Positions 7,209-42,275 of a DNA stretch of 64,000 nucleotides are shown here, one piece after another. The position numbers were made by a program, and so were the translations under genes. Source of the DNA: Tetracentron sinense. Its lineage: Eukaryota > Streptophyta > Magnoliopsida > Trochodendrales > Trochodendraceae. The notes beneath the pieces are model-generated. The model saw nothing but the letters and a program-made list of their open reading frames with translations, ran no database searches and was not told the origin of the DNA. The DNA is taken from contig CM026556.1 of assembly GCA_015143295.1 (NCBI GenBank), positions 20,770,547 to 20,834,546 on the forward strand, read 5' to 3'. Every line of letters begins with the position of its first letter. The stretch's first letter is position 1.

Positions 7209-9244
7209 TGTAGAGACCCAAATCTTTTTTCATGTTTTTATTGCATTGCATTAGGGGTATTATAGTCCTTGTGATGTTTTAATGTTTATTGTATTGTATA
7301 TCTAATGGGTGTAGTGTGATTAAGGTTTAATCAAACTTCTAGTTCAGGAATGTCATATCACACTCTAAACTTTAGGAAGCTCTAGTTTTGGCACCATTTG
7401 TTGGAATTGAGTGATTCTTGAACCATTACAAAGGTATTGGAACCCTCTTCGAGGTTCATGTTTAATGTTTTTCCTTATTTTTAGTCTAAGCTAAGTCAAA
7501 AAATAGGTTTTCCGAAGTCTTATCTGATGGAATTACAGATCAGTCAACTTTGGGGACAATTTGTTCCATAAATGATAGGAAATTTGAAAATTCTAAACTA
7601 CCAGAAATGTTCGTTTTCAAAAGATGAATCCAACGCAAGTTGAATCGTCGAAATCCGACGAACGAGTCAAAAGTTATAGCCAAAATAGTAGAGTACGTCA
7701 AAAAAAATCTGCAGAACACTAATCGCTCGGTCAGAAGTAGCGATCGATCGGTCCAAAACCGATCGATCGGTAGCTATCGACTGGTCCAAAATTTTGTATG
7801 GGGAAATTTTTCAGAGTGTGTTTTTGACCGATCGCACGATCATAAACACCGATCGATCGGTAGGCGACCGATCGCTCGGTCATAACCACCGATCAATTGG
7901 TCTTTCGTGTTTTTGACAGAATTTTAGTAAAGACTTTTAGGTCTTTTCGTTCTCAACCCTTGGGGCTATAAATAGGGGGTCCTACTCGAGATATTAAAAT
8001 ACTCTACCTATTTCTAACCTAATTTGGTAAAAAGGGGGAGAAAACCTAGGGTTTTGAGAGAGGGTTTGCTTGGAGAAGAAGGAGATTACTAGAAGATTGA
8101 GAAGAAAGCTTGGAGATCGCCCTCAAAGCTTCCCCAAATCACCTCGGGAGCGTTTTGAATCCAAGGGAAGGATTTCTAAGGTCGATAAACCCTCTAACTC
8201 AACCCTATTATTGATGTTTTGTGAATATTGGTATAATGTAAATGATAGAAATGATAATTTGATTTGTTTTCCCTAATTAAGTATGGATTAAGCTTACTAG
8301 AGATGAAAATGGACTTATACTATGGATGGATTGAACGGAGGAAGGGAAATACTATGGAGGATTGGGATGAATGTATGGATATGGAGTATGTTTTGATTGT
8401 GTGGATGGATGATGGTGTGATGGAATGTTAAGAATGGGAAAGGGCAAAGTATCCATAATTAACGCACTCTAGATGTTTGTTGAAATGTCTAAGAATGATA
8501 AATATTAGTATGGTGCTTTTAATTATCAAGAAATTAAGTTAAATGAATATTGTGTTGTTATGATAAATTATGCTCTATTTACTTGTATGGTGATCGGTAT
8601 TCGGGTAGGCCAAACCTTAGAGGAAAATCCTCCATGTAGAGCCCCGAATTTTCACATGCATTGTTCATGTGAGTAGGGTTGTGAATAGCGTTGTGAACAG
8701 TGTCAATTCTAGGGATTTCGTAGCATCCGGGCCTCCTATACACATGGGTCGTGCCCATGGGTTACCTTAGTTGGCTTAAGAACCTAGGATCATGAGTTAT
8801 AAGAATGGTGTAGAGGTGGGATTCAAGGTAGATGGGGTATAAGAACACCCTAAGTGTCGAGAGGAACGTCTTAACATTATCCTCAACTTTGAATAGCTCT
8901 AGTTCTCTCACCTCTTATCAGAATCAACTAATTCTTGAACCATTAGAACTGTGTTAGAATCCCCTTCGAGGTTCATGTTTAATGTTTTTCCATATTTTGA
9001 GTCTAAGCTAAGTCAAAAGTGGGTTTTCCGTTGTTTTTCTGCTGAAATTATAGACTAGTCTATTTGTGGGCCCATTTGGAACTTTTAAAACTCAAAATTA
9101 GGATTTTTGTAAAACATGAAAGTTGTTCCTCTTCAAAAGATGAATCCAACACAAGTTGAATCGTTAAAATTAAACAAGCGAGTCAAAAGTTATGGTCAAA
9201 ATACTAAAATGGGGTAAAATCTATCGGAATCCGAAAAATAGGGG

Positions 9245-9392
9245 TGCGATCTATCGCAAATAAGCTGCGATCGATCGTAAAACGGTACGATCTATCACAA
9301 ATTTCTATGATCGATCGCATTCAGGCACGTTTTTTTTTTATTCCTTTCGGGTTCAAGTGCAATAGATCGCACCAAAGGTGCGATTGATCGCA
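9245..9392 (+). repeat. Cluster of six TGCGATCGATCGCA-type palindromes
   Basis: Imperfect 14-bp palindromes at 9245, 9266, 9286, 9306, 9358 and 9379 share the core GATCGATC with TGC/GCA arms. They lie in the U3 part of solo LTR A, upstream of the presumed promoter. Equivalent clusters occupy this place in every gypsy LTR of the window, with different arm sequences. Confidence 0.85.
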
Positions 9393-10480
9393 CTCGCGCC
9401 CAGTTGGCTCTTAAAACCGAGTTTTTTGGGGGTTTTGGGGGAACCTAGACCTAGAGAGGGATTGAGAGGGAGAAAGGGAAGGAAGATTGGGGATTTTCAA
9501 GAGGGGTTTTGTGGAGATCAAGTGGAGCCAAAATCAATGTGGGTCTTCCTCACCTAGCAAGTACTCCTCCATCTTCAAGTGGCATTCTTCCTCAAGCAAG
9601 GAGATTCCAAAACAAGGGTTTCTTCAAGATCTAGCTTTGATCTCAAAGGTTAGTACACCCTACTAACTACCTTGGTAATAATCTAGCTTTCTTGGTTATG
9701 ATGTGTATTGAATCTCCCTTATTTTCCCTCTTTTGGTTTTAAATGCTTAACTTCCCTAAATTAAACAAGATAAAGGATGAGTTGGGGATGTAATAATGGA
9801 TGAAATGGTGTTGAGGCGATGGGATGCCGTATGTATTGTGACGTGTGTTGTGTGATGGAGAAATGGTGGATGGGAATTTTATGCATAAAGAATACACCCC
9901 TTGTGTTTGATGAAAAACATACACTAAGCAACTTAAATCAAAAGGCTATAATTGTGATGCTTATCAAGTGTTTGAGAAAATGTTTAAATGAAGATTTGAA
10001 TGACTGAACTTGAATTATGAAAGCATGCATTGAGTTATTCTTTCTAAATGTCTACCTTGATCAAATGCACTATATGTCATTTATATTTCCATATGCTCAT
10101 ATTAAGAATTGAAATGCTACGCTCATGTGATCATCCTACTCAAGTATGTCATCATGCCTACTACAATTGCTACACACATGCACGCATGTTTGCATGAACT
10201 GGGTTTCTTTCACAAGTGGTGGTACATGATAATTAAAACAAGGAAATGATATGTCAAGGAGGTTGGTAGCCCAGGGATGTGCGGGTACTACCCTCTGGCT
10301 CATAAGAAGCAAAACAAGAACATGTCAAGGAGGTTGGTAGCCTAGGGATGTGCGGGTACTAGCCTCTGGCTCACAAGTTAAACAAAAAATGAAGGTCAAG
10401 GGTAGGGCATATCCCCGGGATATGTCATACCTGGTTCACATGAAAACGCAACAAGCAAGAATCACGAAGCATGGAAGGAT

Positions 10481-10842
10481 GTTAGTGTACTAAGACCAGG
10501 TACGGGCACTAACATCTGTTCCCAACAAGTATGAGAGGATGCTAGTATACTAAGACCAGGTACGGGTACTAGCATCTGTCTCCAAGTAAAATGACAAGCA
10601 TGAAAGGATACTAGTGTACTAAGACCAGGTATGGGCACTAATATCTGTTTCCATGACAAGAATAATATGAAAGTATGCTAGTGTACTAAGATCAGGTACG
10701 GGCACTAGTATATGTTTCCAAGGCAATATGAAAGGGTGTTAATGTACTCAGACCAGGTACGGGTACTAGTATCTGTATCCAAGAAAGAATTAAGAAAAAA
10801 TGGAAGGGTGATAATGTACTAAGACCAGGTATGGGCATTATC
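10481..10842 (+). repeat. Six tandem stem-loop repeats with covarying stems
   Basis: Units at 10481-10513, 10541-10573, 10610-10642, 10677-10709, 10738-10770 and 10810-10842 share a loop close to TACTAAGACCAGGTACGGG. Each is closed by a 7-10 bp stem. Stem sequences differ in step: GTTAGTG/CACTAAC, GCTAGTA/TACTAGC, GATAATG/CATTATC; the others pair with one mismatch or G-U pairs (unit 5 is the weakest). Paired changes suggest that the fold was selected, in RNA or in single-stranded DNA. Confidence 0.85.
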
Positions 10843-12693
10843 ATCTGTTCCCAGGCAAACAAGGAAATTCACAAGCAAGTCGACAAGAAAACACGCATGA
10901 TACTCACGAGACAAGAACCAGATAAGAACCTAGTATATCCGTCCATTTCATAGTTCGGGTACTAGCCAACGAGAAGAACCTCATAAGACATGTAAGGAAC
11001 CCATAAGAAGCAAAAAAAAAATTGTAAAGCTTGAATTACAAGAATCACAAGGAAGGTGAAAAAGGTTTTAGTCAAAGCATAAACCCTAAGTATGAGTTTA
11101 AATCTGATGCACAAGATTTTATTGGTTATCGTTATTAGTTCCGCACTCTGATTTTTGAAATGAAGTGATGAACTGTATGATGTATGTTGTTTTATTGTTA
11201 TTACTATTGTTAGTTAGTATCTTGTACTCACTGAGTATTCCATGCTCAGCCGTACTTTTATGTCGGTAGGTACATTACATGATATGTGGACTCTTGTCCC
11301 TTGGATCGAGGCAGCTCAGGGTGAGCAGGAGGTTATTCAGATGCTTACCTAGATATTAGGAGGCTTGGTATATGGCCAAGGGTTGGGATGAGTGAGAGAG
11401 AGACATGTATTTGGGTTCTTATGCCTATGGGATAATTGTATCATTTGAGTTGGGACTCAAATTAAGAAGTCATGTACATGTGTTATTTTATATTCAGTTA
11501 TTGTAGACAATTTGTGCTTGGAATACAGTTAAGTGATTAAAGAAATTTCTAGTCCTCTATTTTGCATGCCTTGTATACTCTTTGCAGGTGAGTTTAAGTG
11601 TAGGTCACGTTGCCAAAGTATCCTAACTCCTAGGGGGTATTTTGGGGCGTTACACTCCACGTTGAAAATTCTCTAACTAGGGAGATGTAACCTAGCGAAG
11701 TTTCCTAACGGAAGATTGAAATCTAAATGATAACTCATTTGAATTCCAATCACGACACTCAAGCACACGTGCACTTGCATGGTAAGTATTCAAGTCTCAT
11801 GAGTTCACTTGTCTCACAAGCATGCATGCATTGGATACGAACATGTTATGAATTATGCCATGAAAGAATGATCCCCCACTACGAACATCCACTCTACGCG
11901 TTGTCGCACTCATGTTATGCTATGAAAGAATGATCCCCCATTACGAACATCCACTCTATGCATTGTTGAACACTATGAATTATGCGTTGTCGGGACAAAA
12001 CACTATGATTATGCGTTGTTGGGACAAACACACTATGAATCATGCATGTATGAGTCTATGCATATGTTAAGTTAAGTTCATGGATAAGAATTTCACGGGT
12101 ACACGAGTCAAGATGATGTTATGACATGTTATATGCTCTGCACTCTGATTATGTCTATTTTACGAGAAATTGTTATGATTAAGCTTAGATAAACTGAGTT
12201 ATAATATTGTTATTGCTCATGCTATCTTATGTTGTTGTTAGTTTGTTTATCCACTGAGTATTCCATGCTCAGTCAACCTGTCATTGTCTTCAGGTTTAAG
12301 AGGAGAGCCGTGGACTGAGGAGGTGTACGCCGAAGAGGGGGAAGAAGGTGAGCTTCCTGAGGAGGAGGCTAGGGATTTTGATAGTTATCCCTATTTAGTA
12401 GTTTTAGTATTTCTTTTTGGAAGAGATGTTATATTAGACTTTTTGACTTGTAGTTGATATTGTCTTAGTTGTTTTACCCTATTGATGGTTTTAGACTATT
12501 TCGTTTATGAGGAGCTATGATATGTGGATTATCATTGTACAGGATGGTTTGACTTTTCATGATCGAAATTTTATTATCCTCATTTTTGGAGACTCGTGTA
12601 GTATGCCTTATATGTATGGATTTTAAGCAGGTTTAAGAAATGTGATGATTCCAAAGTCCTATTTTAGCCTTGTAGGATTTTGGGGTCGGTACA

Positions 12694-17551: not shown

Positions 17552-18162
17552 CTTCTGTTGCAACCCAAAACCCACCCTAGGAGTTAGAGTGAATCTTGGA
17601 TGACTTATCATGACCTACGTGACATGATTAACGAATCATCCTACAAAATACACGGAGCATATACAATAGAGGACAAAATAGCAGAAGCATACATTAACAT
17701 GGCTAGGAGCACAAATGTAAAAAGGAGCGGGTGCTCCACTAATACCTGCCGACATCAAAAGTACGACTGAGCATGGAATACTCAGTAGGTACCAGATACT
17801 AACCAACAATCATAGCAATATAATAATAGAAATAAAGCGGAAGCAGTTCATATCATAACAGGAAGATAAACAATTTATATTTCATGCTTGTATCACATCA
17901 AAACCGAGAAAACTATTGAAATCATCATGTGCTTGACTTGACTTGAAATACTCTTTTCGTGCTTGCTTGAAAACTTGCCTTGTCGTGTTTAGTCTAGTTT
18001 GTCTTGTCGTGTCCTATCTTGCTTGTCTTGTCATGCGTGTCATGTCGTGCTTGTCTTGTCGTGTCATGCATGCCATGTCATGAAATACAAATGCTCATGC
18101 TTGCTTGCTTGGAAATTAAACATGCGCATGCACTTGGGATGTTAGTGCCCTTGAACAACTTG

Positions 18163-18320
18163 AAGGGAGGGTGGTGTAAACCCCCTCTTAAGAAAATGAG
18201 ATGCAACTTGTGAGGAGGATGGTTTAGAACCCCCTCTTTTTAAAGAGATTCGACTTGTGAGGGAGGGTGGTATAGAACCCCCTCTTATCAACTTGAAGGG
18301 AGGGAAGTGTAAACTCCCTC
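18163..18320 (-). repeat. Tandem hairpin array in gypsy LTR
   Basis: Four units (18163-18187, 18211-18239, 18259-18286, 18296-18320) each pair a G-rich arm such as GAGGGAGGGTGG with a C-rich arm such as ACCCCCTC across a short A-rich loop. The last unit changes both arms (GGGAG with CTCCC). The array occupies a similar place to the hairpin arrays of the other LTRs but has unrelated sequence. Confidence 0.65.
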
Positions 18321-19302
18321 ATTTGAAAAAATACAAATAAGTGAACATGCATGCTTGGAGGTGCACTAACATCTTGCTTGCTTGTTCTTGTTCTTGTCAA
18401 AAGTGAGGCAAAATATATCTTAAGATATGCCCTACCTCTATTTACCAACCCTTATGTTTGGCCTTGTTATGGTGTTCATGAATCGAGAATAAAATCCTTG
18501 TTCTTGAAAAACTCGGTAAACCATGTCGTGCTTGTGATGTCGTGTACATGATATAGCTTGGAAATAAATATGACATATAGTGTTCAATAATACATGGAAT
18601 ATGTAACGCCCCAAAATACCCCCTAGGAGTTAGGCTATATTTGGGCCCGTTACCTACCATACAACCATCTTGCGGAAGCATATAAGGCAAGCTAAATAGT
18701 GAACTGAAAATTTCTTTATTAACTTAACTGTATTCCAAGCACAACTGTTTACAATAACTGAATATAAACTTTGACATGTACATGAAATCCTTGACTTGAG
18801 TTGCCAACTTAAATGGTACAATATCCCCAACCAAATTCCCAAAATACATGACTCTCTCTCTCTCTTCCCAACCATGGCCACAGGCCAACCCTAACCTCTG
18901 ACTAACACTCCAATAACCTCCTGCTCCCCCTGAGCTGCCTCGATCCTCGTGTAGTGTACCTACCGACATCAAAGTACGGCTGAGCATGGAATACTCAGCG
19001 TATACCTACTACTAGCTAACAATGTTATATCACAATAATATCACATGCGAGTACTTTTAAAAGAATTCAGTTCATAATTCATGCTTAAAACAACATAGGC
19101 ATTCATTTGTCAAATCTTATCTTTCGTAGAAAATAAAACACTTTTCATAGTTCTTGTAAGTTCTTGTAAGTTCTGATGAGTCCTTATGAGCTTACAATTT
19201 CTTATTAGTTCTTTATGAGACGTATGAAGTCTTGTGAGGTTCCTTGTGAGCGTATGAGTTTTCGTGAGTTTCTTGTGAGCTTATGAGTTCTTGTGAGTAT
19301 CT

Positions 19303-19815
19303 TGTGAGCAAGAGGTTAGCACCCGCACAACCCTGGGCTACCAACCTCCTTGACATTCCATGTACTTGTGAGCTTTCTTATGAGATATTCTTGTGAGCCA
19401 GAGGTTAGCACCCGCATTACCCTGGGCTACCAACCTCCTTGACATTTCCTTTACTTGTGAGCTTTCTTATGAGATATTCTTGTGAGCCAGAGGTTAGCAC
19501 CCGCATTACCTGGGCTACCAACCTCCTTGACATTCCATGTACTTGTGAGCTTTCTTATGAGATATTCTTGTGAGCCAGAGGTTAGCACCCGCATTATCCT
19601 GGGCTACCAACCTCCTTGACATTCCATGTACTTGTGAGCTTTCTTATGAGATATTCTTGTGAGCCAGAGGTTAGCACCCGCATTACCCTGGGCTACCAAC
19701 CTCCTTGACATTCCCTTTACTTGTGAGCTTTCTTATGAGATATTCTTGTGAGCCAGAGGTTAGCACCCGCATTACCCTGGGCTACCAACCTCCTTGACAT
19801 TCCCTTTACTTGTGA
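19303..19815 (-). repeat. Six-copy minisatellite with internal dyad, solo LTR B
   Basis: Units of about 85-90 bp. Each contains GAGCCAGAGGTTAGCACCCG, a short loop, CTGGGCTACCAACCTCC and a TGACATTCC/CTTGTGAGC linker. GGGTGCTA and TAGCCC within one unit can pair as a hairpin. Diverged relatives of this unit occur in solo LTR A, solo LTR C and the young element. Confidence 0.85.
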
Positions 19816-20528
19816 GAGTTCTTCTGAGTACTTATGGATGCTTCGTAGCTTATGAGTTCTTATGAATTATTGGTAGCTTGTAAAAATCTCGTTATGTAAA
19901 GCATAGAGTGCGTGGAGTGCTTGTGAGCATCATCATGTACATAGGGAAAGCCTTAACAATTCATATGATCTCATACAAAACATGTTTTCATTATAGCGTA
20001 CTTGAAAAATTCTAGAAACATAGCATATGTTCACTCATTGCATTGCATCATCAAAACCATGGCTTTTAAGCCTATTCCATCATATTACAATTCAAAATCA
20101 TGGTTTATTTAAAGGTAATGTCATTCACTTGCAAGCATAGCCACATTCATCCCTCTTTTTGAAAAACCCCCAAATTATAACCCTTGTTTACCCAAAATCA
20201 TCTATCTCCCATTTGCATCATAACATGGTGGAGTAATAGATTCCAATCATGATTTCATTCTCATTTCAATATTTAGATCATAGCAAAGTTAGATGGTAGA
20301 GGTACTTACTTGTAAATCACTTCCTAGGTTGGAGAAAAACCCTTGAGTTGGATCCCCACTTGATTGAGGAAGGACCCAAGCTTTGATTTGGGGAAGATCA
20401 AACCCTTGATTTATGCTCTTCTTGATGCAAATCCAAAAACCCCCTTGATAATCTCAAAGAGATTCTCCTCCTCTTTCTAAGAACTCCTTTTTGGCTTAGG
20501 GTAAACCAAAACCCTCTAATTGATCTCA

Positions 20529-20537
20529 TATTTATAG
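20529..20537 (-). promoter_or_regulatory. TATA box of solo LTR B
   Basis: The minus strand reads CTATAAATA, downstream (in element orientation) of the palindrome cluster and upstream of a purine-rich leader. This matches the layout of the plus-strand gypsy LTR. Confidence 0.6.
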
Positions 20538-20590
20538 GCAAAGGGGTGAAAACCCCCAAAAATCGCATTAAGGAAAGTAAAATCGCGTAT

Positions 20591-20778
20591 CTACGATCGT
20601 TCGTAGTGATTTACGATCGATCGTAGCTTTCTACGATCGATCGTAGCTTCCTACGATCGATCGTAGTTTCACCCGAGAGTTTCCAGCATTTCTGGGGCTT
20701 TACGATCGATCGTAGCAATTCTACGATCGTTCGTAGCGCCTCTACGATCGTTCGTAGGGTCCCTACGATCGATCGCAA
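20591..20778. repeat. Cluster of eight CTACGATCGATCGTAG-type palindromes
   Basis: 16-bp dyads start at 20591, 20611, 20631, 20651, 20700, 20721, 20742 and 20763. Several are perfect palindromes. Some carry GATCGTTC in the centre, which breaks symmetry only in the core. They lie in the U3 part of solo LTR B. Confidence 0.9.
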
Positions 20779-22979
20779 CTTTTGCAGAAAGTTTCAGCAT
20801 TTTTGCGTTTTCGAAATTCGGCCATAACGTTTGACTCGTTTGTCCGATTTTGATGATTCAACTTGCGTTGGATTTGTCTTTCGAAGGAGCACAACTTTCA
20901 TGTTTTTCAAAACTTCCAATTCTTCCTTTTTATTAGACCATTTTGCCCCTAAACCTGACTGATCCGAAATTGGGTTTCGTCAGTCCAGATTTTAAACCGA
21001 CCCGACTTCAGAAATCGGTCTTTTAACCTAACTCCAACTCAAAACCAAGACAATTGATCAACATGAACCCCAAAGAGGGTTCAATTACCTTTCCAAAAAT
21101 CCAAGAATCGCTTGATTTCGACAAGCGGTGTGAACAGTAGGACTATTTAAAGTCAAGGGTATGCTAAGGCATTCCCATTCTTGACACTTAGAACATTTCG
21201 AGTGTTTCACACTCTTTTCATTCGGTTCCAAAACCATACTCACACCTCATGACTCATTAATCCATAGGTTTTTAACACACCTAGGTGATCATGGGGCACA
21301 ACCCAACATGCATGAGAGGCCCCGGTCGCCACAAATCCCTTGAATCGACATTATTCATACCACTATACATTTAATGCTTTGAGCATGGTTTCATACTCTT
21401 TGCATGTTTTCTCAAAACACCTTACACTTCTTGATTCTAACATGAAACTCACATCACACTTAGCCTATGAGGGAAACTCTCACTCTCATTAACCAAACCC
21501 AACTTATAATAAGGGCCTTTGGCCCTTACAATACTAGTGTCCTCGACACTATTCACTTGAACAGTGAACCAAATTTTCGGGGTTCTACAGAATAGCACTC
21601 ATTTCAACTCATAAGTATATTCATTCCATTATAGAAAAGTGAATAAATTTATACATGCATTTCTATAAGCAATTCTTCACCTTGACATTTCATCAAACAT
21701 TTGGTGTATATATTATGGTTAAAGCCTACATCTTGCTTTTCTAGATGGATTAACGGTCATGAGTTACATGTGTGTTCATTATAGGTACAATGCCTTTCCT
21801 ATTTCATTCATTACAAAATATACACACGGCATCATCGCCCATTCACAACAATCCATCTCTATCCATTCACCCCATCACATTATCATGCTTAGAATTTGGG
21901 GAAAAATCACAAAAGAAAATAAAAGAGGAAAAGGAGATGACTAGGAGGGTAGCATATGGTACCGACCTTGAATGGATGAGGGAAAAGCCCTCCAAAACAT
22001 GCATGGAGTCGCTGTTGATCTTGGAGGAGCTGCTCCTAGCATGCTTGAGCCTTGGATTGAGAAATCCAAGCTTTGGGGACGATCTTGGGTTCTCAAACTC
22101 TTGATTCTCTCAAGTTGATGCCCTAGGAGAAAACCCCTTTTCTCCTCTCTTCCTCTCACTCCAAAATATTGCTAAGGGTGTTTATGAACACCCTTGACTC
22201 GAGCCAGCCCTTAAAAGTAAGGGCAAAATACCCAAAAGATGAAAAAGCCCTTAATGAAATTTGTACAAAATGCAAAGGACCGAGCGATCAGTCTCCTACC
22301 GAGCGATCGGTGTTTTTAACCAAGCTCTCGGTCAAAAATCACCTCTTTAGAATTTTTTCCCATACAAATTTTTGGACCAGTCGATAGATACCGATCGATC
22401 GGTTTTGATCCGATCGATCGCTCTTGTGATCGAGCGATCGGTGCTCTACAAATTTCGACACTGAGTCCATTTCTCACTCAATTCCACTACTTGGACTTAT
22501 CCCACTTATATTCTAACATCTTCTAAACATGACTAGGACCCTTCTAAGGCTATAGTACATTATTAATTATTTGATAGTACTCATTCCAAATTCTCAAAGG
22601 TTCCAAATTCTAATTTCTTGAAAAATAGAGATTACAAAGTATCATGCCTTGACACGCATTCCAAGACATATACAAAAGTTCCAGGGTTCTACTCTTTATT
22701 AATCAAATTAAAAAGAATCTAACAATCTAAATGACTTTTTTGGGCATCATGTCTAACAATCTCCCACTTGCCCTAAAAGTCACTGTGTCATAGATTGCAA
22801 TCTCATACTATCTAAGTGTGTTACAAATACTTTATCTAATAAAGCCTTAGTCATCGGGTTAGCAAGATTAAGTTGAGACCTAATCTTTGTAACAATATCT
22901 TGCCTCTCAATTATCTCATGAATAAGATGATACTTCCACTCCACATGTTTCATCTTCTTGTGGCTCCTAGGTTCTTTGC

Positions 22980-30922: not shown

Positions 30923-32501
30923 GGACTCTCCTCTCAACAGTAGTCGATGTATGGCCACACGTCCAAATCCCTATCCTCTTGAGACTGCAACGACATAGGT
31001 GGCTCCCTCTCCTCTACGTACTCTTACTCGACCCAAAGCTCAGGGTCAAAGACATCCACGGAACCTGTAGACATAAAAGTATGGCTGAGCATGAAATACT
31101 CAGCAAGTACAAGCTACTAGCTAGCCAAAGCAACAACGAAAGCATAACAACAGTGAACACGATACGAAATATCAATTTAAACAATACTAGCAGCATAGGA
31201 TAAATAGTATTGAACATGAAGCGATATCAATATCTTGACATGCGTGCATCAATGCGAAAAACCTCGGTAAAACTCATGTTGGGAAACCCTTTTCATGTCT
31301 CGGTCTTGTTTGTGAAAATCATGCATGCGTGTCTGTCTTGTCTTGCATTTTCTGTCTTGACTTGTATACTTGTGAGCCATAGGTTAGCACCCGCACATCC
31401 CTGGGCTACCAACCTCCTTGACATTTCATTCTCTTGTGAGCCAGAGGCTAGCACCCTTCATTTGGGCTACCAACCTCCTTGACATGTACTTGTTCTCTTT
31501 CACTTGTGAGCCAGAGGCTAGCACCCTTCACTTGGGCTACTAACCTCCTTGACGTGTTCTTATTTTATTCACTTATGAGCCAGAAGCTAGCACCCTTCAT
31601 TTGGGCTACCAACCTCCTTGTCATGTACTTGTTTTCATGTTTGATTTATCATATAAAGCTACTCATGGAAAACCCGGTTCATGCATGCATGCATGCTTGT
31701 GTGCTTGTCAATAGTGGCAACCATGATGACATGTTTGAATGGGAGGATCACATGAATGTAGCATTTTGATTTCTAGCATAATCGTATGACGAAGTAGGTA
31801 ACATCTAGTGCATTTGAGAAATTGATCATTCATAAGAAGATTTACACAATTCCTATTTCAATTTTCTTCATTTAATTCATTTACTCCTAGTTTAAGCATT
31901 TTGTCGAACACATAGCATGCAACATTTCCTTAGTAGTTCATCTTACTCTTTTTAGTGCATATTTTCCATCAAATCATCAAGGTAAGTTTCTTATTTGTAG
32001 AGTGCAGTTCCACTATTTTTCAACTTCATTTATCACACAACATCCATACGGCATCCAATCGCCTTAACCCCTCGTCCATCCACACATCACCACATTCCTT
32101 ATTATCTTGTTTACATTTTATAGAAATAGCCCTTTCAAAAGGGAGGGAAAACATGGAATCAAGAATCATCAACAAAATGAAAAACCTAGATTATTGCTAA
32201 TAGGAGTTAGTAGGGTGTACTAACCTTTAAACTTGGAGGAGAATTTGAGGGAAGATCAGATCAGATCCTTTGAGTAGAAAATCCTTGCTTGAGATGGGTT
32301 TTGAGCAAAACCCTAGCTCTTCCTTTCTCTCCTTTCTCTAAATCTCTCAATATAAGCCTTGAGGGTTTATGAAACCCTCACCCATGGATTTGGGGTTTAT
32401 ATAGAAAGTGGGGTGGTCAAATGACCATCCTACCCTTAAAATCTCGGCTAAAACAGATCAAATAGGCAACGTACTCGAGGATCGTTAGACCGGTCATAGG
32501 A

Positions 32502-34829
32502 TGTAACGCCCCAAAATACCCCCTAGGAGTTTAGGGATATTTTAGGTGTCACACTGCGAACCTATCAAACCATCCTGTAATGCACAAGATAAAATACAGT
32601 ACTCATAACGATAATCAGAGCGCGGAAGCTATCATATATGCGGAAGCGTAAACAAATTTTCATTTCTTCTGATGATCCAAAATAGTATTCCAAGTTAACA
32701 TAAATACAAGACATGTCTAAGCCTAAGGTGGACAGGCCCACCTATCAAAATATCAAAATACACCAAACCCTCTCATACTCTCCCCTCAACAGTAGTCGAG
32801 GTATGGCCATGCATCGAGGTCTCGGTCCGCCTGAGACTGTAATGGGATAGCCGACTCTCTCTCCTCTGTATACTCTTCCTCGACCCAAGGCTCCGGGTCG
32901 AGGGCTCCCTCAGTACCTGCCGACATGAAAGTACGGCTGAGCATGGAATACTCAGCGAGTACAAGCTACTAGCAGACCATAACAATAATAAAAACACATA
33001 ATAGTGATATCATACAAGCAGTAATAGAAACATCACAAAGAAACAGTATAGGGCATGACACAATACAAGCATCCTGAAGGGCGTACATGAATGCGAAAAT
33101 GCCGATAAAACTCATGCTTGAAAACCCTTGTCATGTCCCGGTATGCCTCGTAGAAATCATGTATGCGTGCATGCATGAATGCATGATCATCATCTTGTAA
33201 ACTTGTGAGCCAGAGGCTAGCACCCGAATCTCCCTGGGCTGCCAACCTCCTTGATATGCAATGCACTTGTGAGCCAGAGGTTAGTACCCGAATCCTCCCT
33301 GGGCTACCAACCTCCTTGTTATGAAATGCACTTGTGAGCCAGAGGCTAGCACCCAAATGTCCCTGGGCTACCAACCTCCTTGTTATGAAATGCACTTGTG
33401 AGCCAGAGGCTAGCACCCGAATGTCCCTGGGCTACCAACCTCCTTGATATGCAATGCACTTGTTGTTTATTATATGCACATGCTCTTGAAATCACGGTTC
33501 ATGCTATCATGCGTGCTCGTGTACGTGTCCATAGTGACAATCATGATAATGGAAATAACCAAATATGACATTATAATTCAATTCATGATATGAACATAAG
33601 TAACATAAGTAGTTTGCATAACATTTGATCAATTTATCATTTATAAGGACACATGCATAAAACCCATTTCCATGTCCTTCATTGAGATCATTTATTTATA
33701 GTTTAGGCATTTTGTCAAACACTTTCATACGTTATTCCTTAGTAGTTTATCTCCTTCTTTTTAATGCATATTTTCCATTCAATCACACAAGAGTAAGTTT
33801 GTTATTTGTACAATGCCCATCCTCCATTTTCCAATCCACATCCCACACATCATATATCACACATTCGGCATCCAATCGCCGTATCCAACCTCCATCCAAG
33901 CATCCCTACTCTTTCTTTATCTTGTTTATATTTATTATAGATGACACATTTTGCAAGGAATAAAACGCCCTAACAAGAATCATATTTCATAAGGAAAAAC
34001 CTAGATTTATTGCTAGGGTAAGTTAGTAGGGTGTACTAACCTTAGATCAAGGTTTGATCTTGAAGAAACCTTGAAATAGAAGCTCTATTTGGAAGGAAGA
34101 AGCCTTTCCTTGAAGGGGACTTGAGTTGGGGGAAGAAACCTCTTTCAAAACGTGAGTGAGTGCTGCCCTAGCTTGGAGAATGCACCTCCACACGAGCTTG
34201 AGTTGAAATCTTGAAGAAAACGTGCTTGGGGACGGTCTAGGGTCTTCACCCCTTTGATTTCTTCTCCAAAAGCAACCTAGGTTTAGGAAACCCTTTTCTC
34301 TTCTCTCTTATCTCCCAAATCTCTCTAAGTATAGTGAATGATGCCCTAAGGCTCGGGCAAGCCTTAAGGAGAAAGGGTTTAACCCCCAAAAGACGATAAA
34401 GCCCTTACTGAAATTTCTGCAAAAACGCGAAGACCGAGCGATCGGTGGTTATGACCGATCAATCGGTTGCCTACCGAGCGATCGGTGTTTATGACCGATC
34501 GACCGGTCAAAAACTCACTCTCTGGAAAATTTCCCCATACAAAATTTCTGACCGTGCGATAGCTACCGATCGATCGGTTATGGACCGATCGATCGCTGAC
34601 TGGACCGAGCGATCGGTTCTCTGTATGTCTGGACTGTTTTGACCATATCTTTTGACTCGCTCGTCGGATTTCGACGATTCAACTTGCGTTGGGTTCGTCT
34701 TTCGAAAACGCACATTTCTGACGTTTTGGAATTTCCGATTTCTCCCTTATTTATTAATTAGACTACAAAAACGGCCAATTAGCTACGAAGGTGCTATTCA
34801 TTAAGGATGAAAAAGTCCGGGGTGCTACA
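32502..34829 (-). repeat. 3' LTR of young gypsy element
   Basis: Plus-strand TGTAACGCCCC... to ...GGGTGCTACA. The copy at 39948-42275 is offset by 7446 bases. It carries the 19-mer (32937-32955), GAGCCAGAGG-type repeats (about 33204-33450), seven ACCGAGCGATCGGT/ACCGATCGATCGGT palindromes (34433-34617) and the U3 block (34641-34693). The C-rich run directly right of it (34831-34844) is the polypurine tract on the minus strand. Confidence 0.95.
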
Positions 34830-34921
34830 TTCTCCCCCCCTTACAAAAATTTCGTCCCCGAAATTTGGACGATACATACATGCACAAAATCAAAACAAAA
34901 TTACAAGCCATATGCACAAGT

Positions 34922-37900
34922 CTATTCAAACAGCTCGGGATACTTTGCTTTGACTTCGGCTTCACGCTCCCACGTGGCTTCTTCTCGGTCATGATGTTGC
35001 CATTGCACGAGGACTAGCGGAATAGTCTTGTTGCGAAGCATTTGATCTCTCCTATCCAAAATATGAACCGGCTTCTCAACTAAAGTGAGGTCCTCTCGGA
35101 TCTCTATCGGATCAAGCTCGATGACATGAGAAGGATCCGAGATGTACTTCCGGAGCATAGAGACATGGAATACATTATGGACCGCCGCCATGTGAGCGGG
35201 CAAAGCAACACGGTAGCCACCTCGCCAACTCGAGTAATGATCTCGAACGGACCCACATATCTCGGGCTAAGCTTGCCTCTCTTCCCGAATCGCATAACAC
35301 CTTTGGTCGGTGAAATCCTTACAAACTCAAAATCACCGACTCGGAATTCAAGATCCCTCCTTCGGTTGTCGGCATAGCTTTTCTGTCTATCTTGTGCGGT
35401 CTTTAACCTCTCCCGGATAAGCTTGACCCTATCCGCGGTTTGTTCAATTAACTCGGGGCCCAAAATCTTTCTTTCTCCCACTTCATCCCAATACAACGGG
35501 GATCTACAACTCCTTCCGTACAAAGCCTCGAAAGGCGCCATTTGTATGCTTTCTTGATAACTATTGTTGTAAGCGAATTCCACCAAAGGTAGGTGATCTT
35601 CCCAACTTCCCTTGAAGTCTAGCATACATGCTCGGAGCATATCTTCAATAACCTGATTCACCCTCTCGGTTTGCCCGTCGGTCTGTGGGTGGAAAGCTGT
35701 GCTAAAGTCTAACCGGGAGCCCATTGCACCTTGAAAACTTTTCCAAAACCTGGATGTGAATCTTGGGTCTCTATCCGACACAATACTCACTGGCACCCCG
35801 TGTAATCGGACTATTTCCTTGATGTATAGCTCCGCTAACTGATTGGAGTTGAATGTAGTCCGGTACGGTAAGAAATGAGCGGACTTCGTGAGTCTATCAA
35901 CAACTACCCATATAGCATCAGTCTTCCTAACCGTCTTCGGCAACCCCACGATAAAGTCCATAGAGATATGTTCCCATTTCCACTCGGGAATAGGGAGGGA
36001 CTGCAAAAGTCCAGCCGGTCTCCTGTGTTCGGCTTTGACTAGTTGGCACACCAAGCATTTAGACACATACTCCGCTATTTCTCGCTTCATGTTCCGCCAC
36101 CAAAAATGCTTCTTCAAGTCCCTACACATTTTGGTACCCCCGGGGTGAACGGTGTACTTGGACCGGTGAGCCTCGTACAAGATTTCTCGCTTAAGCTTCT
36201 CATCGGCTGGGACACATACTCTTCCCTTGAAAGTGATAATTCCATCTTCCCTCACCATAAAGTCCTTACTGCCACTTTTAACTGACTTGCCTCGGCAAGA
36301 AAGTAGTTCGGCATCCATTTCCTGCAACTCCTGGATCATGCTCAACATAAATGGCCTAACTGTGATGTTAGCCATTACCGGCCCATAGGTAGGGAGACTA
36401 AAACTAATGTCGAGGTTGGATGCATCCTCCAGCAATCTCCACTCCTTCAGCATCATATGCGCCAAAAGTCCAGTAGGCTTCCGGCTAAGAGCATCGGCTA
36501 CTACCTTTGCCTTGCCCGGGTGGTATTGAATGGAGCACTCATAGTCCTTCAAAAATTCTACCCATCTTCTTTGCCTCAGGTTCAACTCTTTCTGGGAAAA
36601 CAAATACTTAAGGCTTTTATGATCTGTGAATACCTCAAATTGTTCCCCATAAAGATAATGTCGCCAAATCTTCAATGCAAACACAACTGCGGCGAGTTCT
36701 AAGTCGTGAGTGGGGTAATTCTTTTCATGCTCCTTCAATTGTCTTGATGCGTAGGCAATGACTTTCTTATGCTGCATAAGGACACACCCAAGTCCGATAT
36801 GCGAAGCATCGCTATATACCTCATAACCACCATGTCCGGATGGCACAGTAAGGACAGGGGCTGTGGTGAGGCGTTTCTTCAACTCTTGGAAACTTACTTC
36901 ACATCGGTCACTCCAACTGAACTTTGCATTTTTCCTTGTCAAGTAGGTGAGAGGTGCAGCCAGACTGGAGAATCCCTCCACAAATCTCCGGTAGTAGCCT
37001 GCCAATCCGAGGAAACTACGTATCTCCGTGACGCTCTTGGGCCTCTCCCAACTCATGACTGCCTCAACCTTGGCTGGATCTACAGAAATGCCCTCGACCG
37101 ACACCACGTGTCCAAGAAATGCGACCTTCTCTAACCAGAACTCGCACTTACTCAATTTGGCATATAGCCTATGCTCTCTCAACATCTCCAGAGCAAGGCG
37201 GAGGTCTCGCGCGTGATCTTCCCGTGTCTGGGAATACACCAAAATGTCATCAATGAATACAATCAAGCATCGATCCAAGTAAGATCGGAACACCCGGTTC
37301 ATCAAATCCATGAATGCCGCCGGTGCATTCGTCAGCCCAAAAGGCATGACAAGGAACTCGTAATGCCCATACCGAGTCCTGAAGGCCGTCTTCGGAACAT
37401 CTTCCGCCTTGATCCTTAATTGATGATACCCCGATCTAAGATCAATTTTGGAGAAGAATCTCGCTCCCTTCAGTTGGTCGAACAAGTCATCGATCCTTGG
37501 CAAGGGATAACGATTCTTGATAGTTACCTTGTTCAACTGACGGTAGTCTATACACATTCTCATCGACCCGTCTTTCTTCTTTACAAAAAGGACCGGAGCT
37601 CCCCACGGTGACACACTTGGTTGGATGAAACCAAGTTGTTGTAACTCCTCAATTTGCTTCTTCAATTCTTCAAGCTCTATCGGGGCCATTCTATATGGGG
37701 CTCTTGAAATTGGAGCGGTGCCCGGAGTAAGCTCTATAGCGAACTCAATCTCCCGATTCGGAGGTAACCCGGGAAGTTCCTCCGGAAACACGTCCAAGAA
37801 ATCACTCACGACCGGAATGGCCGAGGAGTTTTGTGCTTCTAGGTTTGTTACACTCAAGGCTGCGAGGCGAGCAATGTCCCTCTCTCTTAATCCTCGGAAG

Positions 37901-38247
37901 TGAAAAGGCTTACCCCCTTCCGGCTTGAAATTCACCATCTTCTCAAAACACGCAACATGCCCGTGATGGTTTGACAACCAATCCATCCCTAAGATGACAT
38001 CAAAATCCAAGTCTTGAAAATCTAGGACGATGAGATCGGCTAACAGTTCATTCTCCCCCACTTGAACCACACTATCCCCGAATATCTTGTCCGTATCAAC
38101 TGACTTGCCGAGTGGAGTTGCAATGGTCAACTCCTGCTTTAACGGAGTAGCCTCAGTCAAAAATCCCTTTGCGAAACTAGGCGACACAAAGGAGTGAGTG
38201 GATCCTGTGTCGATCAACACTCGGGCAAGACATTCGTTCACTAACAA
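34922..38247 (-). pseudogene. pol region of young gypsy element (PR-RT-RH-INT-chromodomain)
   Basis: A 1047-codon open frame covers most of pol. Domains in order: aspartic protease with DTGS near residue 13, reverse transcriptase ([21 protein letters not shown] catalytic motif), RNase H ([13 protein letters not shown]), integrase zinc region, integrase core ([27 protein letters not shown]) and GPF/Y module ([13 protein letters not shown]). A chromodomain-like tail (TWEREAEVKAKYPELF) follows in the same region. In this family pol makes and integrates the DNA copy. About one break; treated as a recent fossil. Confidence 0.9.
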
Positions 38248-38252
38248 AGCGC

Positions 38253-38394
38253 CTGTGCGATTAAGTGACTACTATTAGTAGATTTCAAACAAAAAGCATC
38301 ATACATAGGTAACCCTTAGTATAGAAACTCACAAAGCAAACCATAGAAATTTTACACAATTTAAATTCTAGAATTCGTGCGTACCTTGCACGAC
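38253..38394 (-). other. gag-pol spacer of young element, GT/AG borders
   Basis: 142 non-coding bases between gag and protease. On the minus strand the spacer starts GTACGC after CAAG and ends CACAG. Length and borders match the spacers in the two older elements (3703-3845, 15771-15915). Because the element transposed recently, the spacer is a normal part of the family rather than decay. Confidence 0.55.
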
Positions 38395-39642
38395 ATCATC
38401 GGATGCACGTGCGTCTCTCTCGGATAAGGCAAAGACTCGGCCCTGTGTGGCTGGGCGAGGAGGCCGGGTAGACTGTGAGGCCCTCGAAGCCTGAGAAGAG
38501 CTAGGCTGAGATGTCTGCCTAACCGGGGGCCTGCTCCCTGAAGACTGAGTTGGCAATTGACGCCGGGGACAATCTCTGACCATGTGGCCTTGGTCACCAC
38601 AATGGAAGCAACTTCCTGAAACTCTCCGGCATTCTCCCGCTGGATGCCTCCTCCCACAAAGAGTGCAAACATCATGCAAATAGGAGGACGGAGCATACCC
38701 CGTAGCCTGAGTAACTGCGGGGCGAGGAGCATATGAGGTAGCCGGGCGAAAAGCCGGTGGAGCGAAAGAGCGGGGAGCCTGTGGTGCTGAATACATCCTC
38801 TGTGACTGAGCCGGGCCTGCAGACTGATACAAGCTCGTCCTTACTCTTTTCTCCCCTGAACTACTCGACTGTCCTTTTTCCATTCCTCTTCTTTTGAAGA
38901 ACTCCTCGGAGTTCGACTCGGCCAATAGTGCTTTATCAACAACTTCAGAATATGTCTCATGTCTAAACATCGAGACTCGGTCCTTGAGATAGGCCTTCAA
39001 CCCCCTCTCGAATTTCCGGGCCTTCATAGCCTCGGTCACTATCATGTGTGGAGCAAATCGAGATAGCTCCGAAAATTTGGCTTCATAAGCCGCTACAGAC
39101 ATATTACCTTGCTCCAAGGTAATGAATTCGACTTCCATCTTTTCTTTCATCCCGACCGGAAAATACTTCTTGTTGAAAACCTCCAAGAATTCCTCCCAAG
39201 TCCAATCTTGACCTTGCCGGGTCAACTCTCGGGTCCGAAGTGCAGACTTCCACCAATGATCGGCCTCGCCTTCAAGCATAAAGGCGGCCCATGTGACCCT
39301 TTCCACTTCAGTAGGTGCTAATACCGAGAATATCTTCTCAAGTTGCCGGATCCAACCCTCGGCAACAAGTGGATCAATGCTTCCACAAAAAGTTGGAGGC
39401 CTCATCCTCCGAAAAGCTTCTATCCCGGCTTGGGCTCGGTTAGGAGGAGCCGGTATGAGCGCCGCATTAGGCGGAGTGGCCGGTTGCCTTGCCGCCAACA
39501 TAGCCAAGGTCTCGGCTATGGATGCGAATGCTTGGGCAAAGTCGGGTTGATAATCACCCGATGGAGCATCACCTCCATTACCCCTTGTGTTGTACCCGCG
39601 ACCCCGGGTATTGCGTCTCATGATTTCTCCTGAGAACGACAA
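38368..39642 (-). CDS. Gag polyprotein of young gypsy element
   Basis: Open frame of 424 codons. Gag packages element RNA into cytoplasmic particles. The N-terminal third is Arg/Gly- and Ala/Pro-rich. The central retrotransposon-gag domain includes WTWEEFLEVFNKKYFPVG and SELSRFAPHMIVTEAM. The C-terminal part has a zinc-knuckle-like CTLCGRRHPAGEC followed by a classical CCHC knuckle, CFHCGDQGHMVRDC, then a basic, Ser/Gln/Pro-rich tail. The last few codons run into the gag-pol spacer, so the true 3' border depends on whether that spacer is spliced. The first ATG is uncertain; a second lies a few codons downstream. Confidence 0.9.
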   Translation of the reverse strand: MSFSGEIMRRNTRGRGYNTRGNGGDAPSGDYQPDFAQAFASIAETLAMLAARQPATPPNAALIPAPPNRAQAGIEAFRRMRPPTFCGSIDPLVAEGWIRQLEKIFSVLAPTEVERVTWAAFMLEGEADHWWKSALRTRELTRQGQDWTWEEFLEVFNKKYFPVGMKEKMEVEFITLEQGNMSVAAYEAKFSELSRFAPHMIVTEAMKARKFERGLKAYLKDRVSMFRHETYSEVVDKALLAESNSEEFFKRRGMEKGQSSSSGEKRVRTSLYQSAGPAQSQRMYSAPQAPRSFAPPAFRPATSYAPRPAVTQATGYAPSSYLHDVCTLCGRRHPAGECRRVSGSCFHCGDQGHMVRDCPRRQLPTQSSGSRPPVRQTSQPSSSQASRASQSTRPPRPATQGRVFALSERDARASDDVVQGTHEF

Positions 39643-39932
39643 TACAACATGAGTCTAACTTGGATACGCATTTAGTACAATTTCGCAATTCACTTAATAC
39701 ATATTCATCAAGCACATTTAATAAGTACAACACAAATAATGTACACATGGTATATAACACAATAGCATAACATACAATCCGTGTTCCTAGCGTAGGACTC
39801 TATGTTCGGTTGAAGTTCAACCCATTTTGACTAAGACTAACTTGTTAGTCTATACTTGGAATACAACTCTCTAAGGTGATTCTAATACCTTGTTCAATCA
39901 TCTAAGTGACCCTATGGACTCTAATGCCTAGA

Positions 39933-39944
39933 GCTCTGATACCA
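39933..39944 (-). other. Primer binding site of young gypsy element
   Basis: The minus strand reads TGGTATCAGAGC, three bases inside the 5' LTR. tRNA-iMet type, a perfect match to the other elements. Confidence 0.93.
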
Positions 39945-39947
39945 CTC

Positions 39948-42275
39948 TGTAACGCCCCAAAATACCCCCTAGGAGTTTAGGGATATTTTAGGTGTCACAC
40001 TGCGAACCTATCAAACCATCCTGTAATGCACAAGATAAAATACAGTACTCATAACGATAATCAGAGCGCGGAAGCTATCATATATGCGGAAGCGTAAACA
40101 AATTTTCATTTCTTCTGATGATCCAAAATAGTATTCCAAGTTAACATAAATACAAGACATGTCTAAGCCTAAGGTGGACAGGCCCACCTATCAAAATATC
40201 AAAATACACCAAACCCTCTCATACTCTCCCCTCAACAGTAGTCGAGGTATGGCCATGCATCGAGGTCTCGGTCCGCCTGAGACTGTAATGGGATAGCCGA
40301 CTCTCTCTCCTCTGTATACTCTTCCTCGACCCAAGGCTCCGGGTCGAGGGCTCCCTCAGTACCTGCCGACATGAAAGTACGGCTGAGCATGGAATACTCA
40401 GCGAGTACAAGCTACTAGCAGACCATAACAATAATAAAAACACATAATAGTGATATCATACAAGCAGTAATAGAAACATCACAAAGAAACAGTATAGGGC
40501 ATGACACAATACAAGCATCCTGAAGGGCGTACATGAATGCGAAAATGCCGATAAAACTCATGCTTGAAAACCCTTGTCATGTCCCGGTATGCCTCGTAGA
40601 AATCATGTATGCGTGCATGCATGAATGCATGATCATCATCTTGTAAACTTGTGAGCCAGAGGCTAGCACCCGAATCTCCCTGGGCTGCCAACCTCCTTGA
40701 TATGCAATGCACTTGTGAGCCAGAGGTTAGTACCCGAATCCTCCCTGGGCTACCAACCTCCTTGTTATGAAATGCACTTGTGAGCCAGAGGCTAGCACCC
40801 AAATGTCCCTGGGCTACCAACCTCCTTGTTATGAAATGCACTTGTGAGCCAGAGGCTAGCACCCGAATGTCCCTGGGCTACCAACCTCCTTGATATGCAA
40901 TGCACTTGTTGTTTATTATATGCACATGCTCTTGAAATCACGGTTCATGCTATCATGCGTGCTCGTGTACGTGTCCATAGTGACAATCATGATAATGGAA
41001 ATAACCAAATATGACATTATAATTCAATTCATGATATGAACATAAGTAACATAAGTAGTTTGCATAACATTTGATCAATTTATCATTTATAAGGACACAT
41101 GCATAAAACCCATTTCCATGTCCTTCATTGAGATCATTTATTTATAGTTTAGGCATTTTGTCAAACACTTTCATACGTTATTCCTTAGTAGTTTATCTCC
41201 TTCTTTTTAATGCATATTTTCCATTCAATCACACAAGAGTAAGTTTGTTATTTGTACAATGCCCATCCTCCATTTTCCAATCCACATCCCACACATCATA
41301 TATCACACATTCGGCATCCAATCGCCGTATCCAACCTCCATCCAAGCATCCCTACTCTTTCTTTATCTTGTTTATATTTATTATAGATGACACATTTTGC
41401 AAGGAATAAAACGCCCTAACAAGAATCATATTTCATAAGGAAAAACCTAGATTTATTGCTAGGGTAAGTTAGTAGGGTGTACTAACCTTAGATCAAGGTT
41501 TGATCTTGAAGAAACCTTGAAATAGAAGCTCTATTTGGAAGGAAGAAGCCTTTCCTTGAAGGGGACTTGAGTTGGGGGAAGAAACCTCTTTCAAAACGTG
41601 AGTGAGTGCTGCCCTAGCTTGGAGAATGCACCTCCACACGAGCTTGAGTTGAAATCTTGAAGAAAACGTGCTTGGGGACGGTCTAGGGTCTTCACCCCTT
41701 TGATTTCTTCTCCAAAAGCAACCTAGGTTTAGGAAACCCTTTTCTCTTCTCTCTTATCTCCCAAATCTCTCTAAGTATAGTGAATGATGCCCTAAGGCTC
41801 GGGCAAGCCTTAAGGAGAAAGGGTTTAACCCCCAAAAGACGATAAAGCCCTTACTGAAATTTCTGCAAAAACGCGAAGACCGAGCGATCGGTGGTTATGA
41901 CCGATCAATCGGTTGCCTACCGAGCGATCGGTGTTTATGACCGATCGACCGGTCAAAAACTCACTCTCTGGAAAATTTCCCCATACAAAATTTCTGACCG
42001 TGCGATAGCTACCGATCGATCGGTTATGGACCGATCGATCGCTGACTGGACCGAGCAATCGGTTCTCTGTATGTCTGGACTGTTTTGACCATATCTTTTG
42101 ACTCGCTCGTCGGATTTCGACGATTCAACTTGCGTTGGGTTCGTCTTTCGAAAACGCACATTTCTGACGTTTTGGAATTTCCGATTTCTCCCTTATTTAT
42201 TAATTAGACTACAAAAACGGCCAATTAGCTACGAAGGTGCTATTCATTAAGGATGAAAAAGTCCGGGGTGCTACA
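39948..42275 (-). repeat. 5' LTR of young gypsy element
   Basis: 2328 bp, the same length as the 3' LTR, with one difference noticed (within the last palindrome of the U3 cluster). The 19-mer is at 40383-40401, repeats at about 40650-40896, palindromes at 41879-42063 and the U3 block at 42087-42139. Confidence 0.95.

Follow-up and report, generated by a model that had tools for sequence, protein, structure and literature searches.

Tandem hairpin arrays in long terminal repeats of Tetracentron sinense: matched stem changes suggest an RNA fold under selection

In retroviral packaging signals (the psi stem-loops), the leader of the genomic RNA folds into several hairpins whose loops are G-rich and conserved. 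The arrays described here are similar in that several hairpins with loops of this kind lie between a donor-like and an acceptor-like site in what would be a leader, but they differ in consisting of up to seven tandem near-copies of one hairpin class (more in class G), in lying inside the long terminal repeat (LTR), and in being described from sequence. To our knowledge, plant LTR retrotransposons have been little studied for cis-acting RNA signals. The consulted part of PMC12786077 takes the same view and says it is not clear if CAR-like export motifs exist in plant elements. It presents the export elements of mouse IAP (RTE) and MusD (MTE) as structured cis-acting RNA, and notes a structured leader in a plant pararetrovirus. 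By analogy, these mouse elements and this leader appear to be the nearest models (PMC12786077); RTE and MTE share with the present arrays a structured cis-acting RNA in an LTR element but are not described in that part of the source as tandem arrays. The consulted part of PMC3601003 ties conservation in the long R regions of LTRs to stem-loops, a constraint like the one considered here, but describes no hairpin arrays, and the LTRs of plant Metaviridae (Ty3/gypsy) could not be modelled there owing to length variation. The same part reports tandem repeats in U3 of Tnt1 that are involved in transcription control; these also lie inside an LTR, whereas the present array lies downstream of a TATA-like site and its RNA pairing is kept. 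Stem-loops derived from transposable elements in enod40 RNA resemble tandem repeats (PMC10578108, consulted in part) and are a different thing from an LTR hairpin array. Among the open-access literature matches listed, at the level of titles and abstract openings and with most subscription papers outside, none mentioned RNA hairpins arrayed in tandem in the LTRs of plants. We rate structured cis-acting retroelement RNA as a known kind of signal, and its tandem form, differing by family, as unusual.

The window, a 64,000-nucleotide stretch of T. sinense contig CM026556.1, contains a solo LTR inside the 3' LTR of another, older element. The features of this LTR are as follows.

8630-8634, + strand: target site duplication CTCCA, left copy
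8635-11654, + strand: solo LTR, 3,020 bp, TGTAGAGCCCC...GGGGCGTTACA
9648-9667, + strand: conserved GGTTAGTA-CACCC-TACTAAC, a perfect 7-bp hairpin that reads as a splice-donor-like site
10253-10306, + strand: class-B hairpin, GAGGTTGGTA/TACTACCCTC, one mismatch
10322-10375, + strand: class-B hairpin, GAGGTTGGTA/TACTAGCCTC
10401-10431, + strand: class-H hairpin, GGTAGGGCATATCC/GGGATATGTCATACC, one mismatch, read by eye (a similar unit occurs twice in locus L078)
10473-10522, + strand: class-A unit, type U1
10533-10582, + strand: class-A unit, type U2
10602-10651, + strand: class-A unit, type U3, one C-A mismatch in the window copy
10669-10718, + strand: class-A unit, type U4
10730-10779, + strand: class-A fusion unit (unit 5), U5 5' arm and U6 3' arm, weak stem
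10802-10851, + strand: class-A unit, type U7
10930-10965, + strand: class-G hairpin, CTAGTA/TACTAG
11233-11257, + strand: LTR motif GAGTATTCCATGCTCAGCCGTACTT, common to a wider LTR group
11655-11659, + strand: target site duplication CTCCA, right copy

The class-A array thus consists of six hairpin units (10473-10851) with the loop TACTAAGACCAGGTAYGGG or one near to it. The preliminary description had reported six units with a near-identical loop, and they are present far above shuffle expectation: the loop core (up to two mismatches) has nine matches in the window, six of them inside the array, compared with a mean of 1.3 in shuffled sequences (0 of 100 reach nine). Its further statement, that the stems differ yet stay paired, holds for five of the six units, in which the 10-bp inner stem is complete or has the single C-A mismatch of unit 3, but unit 5 is weak. 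The arms of unit 5 meet at nine of ten positions, four of them as wobbles, the remaining position is A-C, and its lowest-energy fold differs from the array-type hairpin; comparison with seven-unit copies identifies it as a fusion of U5 and U6. Folded as RNA, single units of the window array have z-scores from -0.79 to -2.79, and the whole array has a z-score of -3.14 on the + strand versus -0.42 on the - strand. The two class-B hairpins, the class-H hairpin and the class-G hairpin of the same LTR are absent from the preliminary description. Class-A loops contain a self-complementary GTAC, noted by eye, and class-B loops do not. Elsewhere in the window, outside the LTRs studied, there are tandem repeats with periods of 62 (49058-49188) and 47 (51611-51757).

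The 19-nt loop TACTAAGACCAGGTAYGGG has 2,493 exact sites in the 1.16-Gb genome (reversed control, 0), which at three to seven units per copy corresponds to some hundreds of class-A LTRs. We compared 30 of these loci (L001-L030), in which the fullest arrays have seven units in the fixed order U1 to U7. Each of the seven unit types has its own 10-bp stem, and every type is built as an outer 4-bp helix, an internal loop (G / TG), the 10-bp helix and the 19-nt loop. The asymmetry of the internal loop is kept in all seven types. The outer helix, missed in the preliminary description, also varies in matched fashion (GGAA/TTCC, GAGA/TCTC, GAAA/TTTC). By this comparison, the window copy is one unit shorter through the U5-U6 fusion. 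Copies differ in array length, with three to seven class-A units per copy among L001-L030 and up to 17 units in class-G arrays (L101, L102). Such variation fits slippage or recombination between units, as expected. A search of the window against Rfam gave no matches at the gathering score; the best hit within the LTR had an E-value of 0.16 and lay on the opposite strand.

Hairpin arrays accompany a very abundant LTR motif, GAGTATTCCATGCTCAGCCGTACTT, which has 24,167 sites in this one genome when up to two mismatches are allowed (control, 0). The 23-letter motif had no exact match in viral and genome contig collections, both of which are without plants. Thirty motif loci were read, the first on contig C1 rather than a random sample and some of them apparently the two LTRs of one element. 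Every one carries a hairpin-containing tandem repeat no more than about 750 bases upstream of the motif. Read by eye, 12 of these loci belong to class B, 15 to class E, two to class F and one to class G with H, though class E, a short palindrome, may represent something different. The class-E arrays (GAAGGG-TCT-CCCTTC and similar) occupy about the same place in the LTR (L061-L063, L066, L069-L071, L073, L074, L083, L085 and L087-L090). Linkers in class-A, class-B and class-G arrays are enriched about three- to four-fold in CAAG, which is missing from class F and gives a mixed picture in class E. Two relatives of the solo LTR lie within the window.

18602-21589, - strand: related LTR with six class-B hairpins at about 19300-19805
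32502-42275, - strand: young related full-length element, target site duplication TAGGA, LTRs 99.96% identical, class-B arrays at about 33215-33460 and 40661-40906

A tandem repeat with GAGGG/CCCTC arms at 18156-18287 lies upstream of a copy of the LTR motif (17759-17783, - strand), and the adjoining motif suggests that it is probably the array of a further LTR.

The differences between unit types were matched to a high degree. Matched change was assessed for classes A, B and G. When the commonest observed form of each class-A type was compared, all 98 pairs of the seven types were canonical (95 Watson-Crick and three G-U), in a fold that was read from the same sequences on which pairing was then tested, and differences between types were two-sided in 68 cases and one-sided in 16. 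Of the 5,040 possible pairings of 5' arms with 3' arms, one reaches 98 canonical pairs, the true one. A few old events in a small founder set, later amplified, could have left such a pattern as a by-product of descent with no structural constraint, and the recurrence of the same seven types through the family does imply few events. We simulated the columns independently, with each column keeping its own number of changes, on 30 trees (the 15 most parsimonious of 1,500 random trees, plus 15 taken at random). With types as tips and event numbers fixed in this way, none of 30,000 simulations reached 98 canonical pairs (best, 95), which argues against descent alone.

Class G repeats the pattern. 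In the nine units of L078, 62 of 63 pairs are canonical, a number that no more than 0.5% of simulations reach on any of the 30 trees and that 168 of 362,880 arm swaps reach. Here the seven inner pairs are counted; the eighth is frequently unpaired. Across 13 loci with 132 class-G units, 11 forms occur at least three times, and 75 of their 77 inner pairs are canonical, with 71 two-sided versus 38 one-sided differences. In the full set of 132 units, from which decayed and misregistered units were not removed, the seven inner pairs comprise 811 Watson-Crick, 53 G-U, 17 A-C and 43 other combinations. In class B, 48 of 98 units have the form GAGGTTGGTA/TGCTAGCCTC with three wobbles, in a set gathered with a pattern near the commonest form and therefore biased towards it. 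Pair 9 of class B occurs as T-A, T-G and C-G, the path expected for compensation.

A strict per-pair covariation test is not passed. In a home-made test resembling R-scape, run with 200 simulations on 175 distinct class-A units (identical units counted once, with a limit of eight differences from a type), no pair had E < 0.05, and the best values were 0.325 and 0.65. Predicted stem pairs made up seven of the 12 top-ranking pairs. Matched changes on the same branch numbered four, against a null mean of 1.23 (14 of 600 simulations reach four), and those on deep branches numbered two, against 0.18 (4 of 600 simulations reach two). The unit tree in this test is built from 50 letters and is unreliable, and the type-level simulation was added beside it, not as a substitute. 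We think that the weak per-pair signal is due to few old events. The absence of a significant pair in this tree-aware test is what a by-product of descent would also give, but with the type-level simulations and class G against it we regard that explanation as highly improbable. The argument in the preliminary description that matched changes imply selection on the fold is therefore upheld at the level of unit types and in class G across 13 loci, but not at the level of single pairs.

Changes within single copies give a different picture from those between types. Of 54 changes private to one class-A unit, 15 give G-U, 19 give A-C, 16 give other mismatches, two break existing wobbles, and two occur where the partner has also changed; 37 of the 54 break the pair. 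All class-A changes from Watson-Crick pairs, shared ones included, comprise 88 G-U, 50 A-C and 26 others, an excess of G-U over A-C that comes in part from a single U2 variant with G-U, present in 18 units. These decay counts leave out ten of the 250 class-A units, each with more than six differences from every type. The preliminary description had proposed covariation across family copies as support for the fold and mostly one-sided changes as evidence against it, and the outcome is divided, with a best E-value of 0.325 and most copy-private changes breaking the pair. Since copy-private changes are mostly pair-breaking, inserted copies decay regardless of the fold, and the matched differences thus arose in the replicating lineage. 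Selection, as far as the sequences indicate, acted in the source lineage and not on old inserted copies.

Matched changes might also arise with no selection through quasi-palindrome correction, in which template switching within a hairpin, in the course of reverse transcription or replication, rewrites one arm to match the other. The stems are inverted repeats in a retroelement, and a single event of this kind could make matched changes. Symmetry is also seen in GATC-rich palindromes that lie upstream of the TATA region, at a place where selection on RNA is not expected. However, such copying sits poorly with the G-U wobbles that persist in the common forms, with the G / TG asymmetry in all seven types and with changes that are scattered single pairs. 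Matched changes are also rare in copies, at two of 54 singleton positions and, over all class-A changes, at nine of 191 changed pairs that are two-sided and paired, some of which are unit fusions. We consider this process improbable as the source of the pattern.

The wobbles also bear on which strand is folded, as a G-U pair on one strand is A-C on the other. In the common forms, the counted helices contain three G-U pairs in class A, four in class G of L078 and three G-U states in class B, and no A-C. Although these counts are based on few states, the ratio of G-U to A-C in class A and in class G of L078 together is 7:0, compared with 15:19 among the class-A singletons (Fisher P 0.010), and it becomes 10:0 when class B is added (Fisher P 0.002 against the same singletons). 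One exception lies just outside the seven counted pairs: a common class-G form, seen in 11 units, has A-C at its position 8. In folding comparisons with 60 shuffles, the sense strand folded better than the antisense strand in nine of 11 arrays, namely all nine of classes A, B, F and G, and the antisense strand folded better in both class-E arrays tested (L069, L085). This wobble polarity fits a sense RNA. Where the preliminary description had allowed RNA or single-stranded DNA, wobble polarity and sense-strand folding, as read from the genome, point to RNA and away from single-stranded DNA.

The same evidence bears on palindromes acting at the DNA level, either as sites for dimeric host proteins or as cruciforms that drive or shield transcription. 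LTRs often have repeated enhancer motifs, and the arms of classes A and G share a YTAGTR/YACTAR look, both of which would suit such sites. The tandem repeats of Tnt1 provide an example of repeated motifs of this kind in an LTR (consulted part of PMC3601003). A dimer, however, should recognise its two half-sites separately, which gives no reason for units to differ in matched fashion, and the G-U polarity of the counted helices and the better folding of the sense strand in nine of 11 arrays also speak against a DNA site. We give this explanation little credence. Stems of 10-14 bp also seem too short for a role as small-RNA precursors. We consider it likely that a sense-strand RNA fold was under selection in the source lineage.

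The likely carrier of the arrays is represented by the young element at 32502-42275. It contains gag, zinc knuckle, RVP_2, RVT_1, RT_RNaseH and Integrase_H2C2 in pieces and in gypsy order, and an integrase core with a score under its cut-off. A Chromo domain (PF00385, E 3e-06) is encoded at the C-terminal side of pol by the piece at 34925-35179, in a different frame from the rest of pol (35104-38247, - strand). The pieces for gag, protease, reverse transcriptase, RNase H and integrase, together with the Chromo piece, make this a chromodomain Ty3/gypsy element, which we take from the look of the element, not from a tree, to be a Tekay-type chromovirus. The primer site TGGTATCAGAGC, presumably of the tRNA-Met type, follows its 5' LTR and also follows the LTR in six of the 30 motif loci. 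Chromodomains are found only in chromoviruses according to the consulted part of PMC6317226. As the solo LTR has no coding part, its kinship with the young element rests on shared LTR segments and hairpins.

The array probably lies within the transcribed part of the LTR. Of 39 class-A copies, 21 have a TATA-like site upstream of the array, at a distance of about 0.96-1.18 kb among the copies listed, and the pattern used found none in the window copy. Downstream of the LTR motif, AATAAA was found in one of 14 LTRs inspected, the one at 18602-21589. Upstream of the TATA region there are short tandem palindromes around GATCGATC (9245-9400, 20589-20775, 34432-34615 and 41878-42064), outside the likely transcript, whose outer letters vary by LTR family yet are symmetric (TGC/GCA, CTA/TAG, ACC/GGT). 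Class-A arrays are flanked by a donor-like site in 33 and an acceptor-like site in 31 of 39 copies. A search for spliced copies, using one predicted junction of a related family with up to two mismatches, gave six sites, compared with six in the reversed control. The idea of an intron is weakened because the donor-like GGTTAGTAC belongs to a perfect 7-bp hairpin. This hairpin, GGTTAGTACACCCTACTAAC, is identical in four LTRs (window positions 9648-9667, 32206-32225, 34022-34041 and 41468-41487), and its arms resemble those of the array units.

Taken together, we propose that the array is a set of tandem RNA hairpins in the probably transcribed LTR part of a chromodomain Ty3/gypsy element, and that selection would have kept the fold in replicating source elements. 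Genomic RNA would start near the TATA-like site about 1 kb upstream of the array, and the hairpins with their single-stranded linkers would form a multivalent cis-acting binding platform in its leader. This platform may bind the element's own Gag/nucleocapsid and help to select genomic RNA for packaging, a tentative reading to which we give rather less than an even chance. Alternatively, the partner bound by the hairpins might be a host factor that serves nuclear export, or translation of a long structured leader, which we regard as possible but doubtful. More speculatively, and in our judgement rather unlikely, the place downstream of the TATA box could hold a modular "address" that each LTR family fills with its own tandem hairpin class (A, B, E, F, G or H), read by its own Gag, so that cohabiting families would avoid packaging each other's RNA. 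If so, the hairpin classes would change in step with Gag, in the manner of a recognition code.

The diverged tandem units of one LTR allow compensatory changes to be compared internally, and the decayed insertions serve as an internal neutral control, so that selection on an RNA fold becomes testable from genome sequence by itself. If the hairpins do address RNA to Gag or to export, they would open a way to study how plant elements choose their own RNA.
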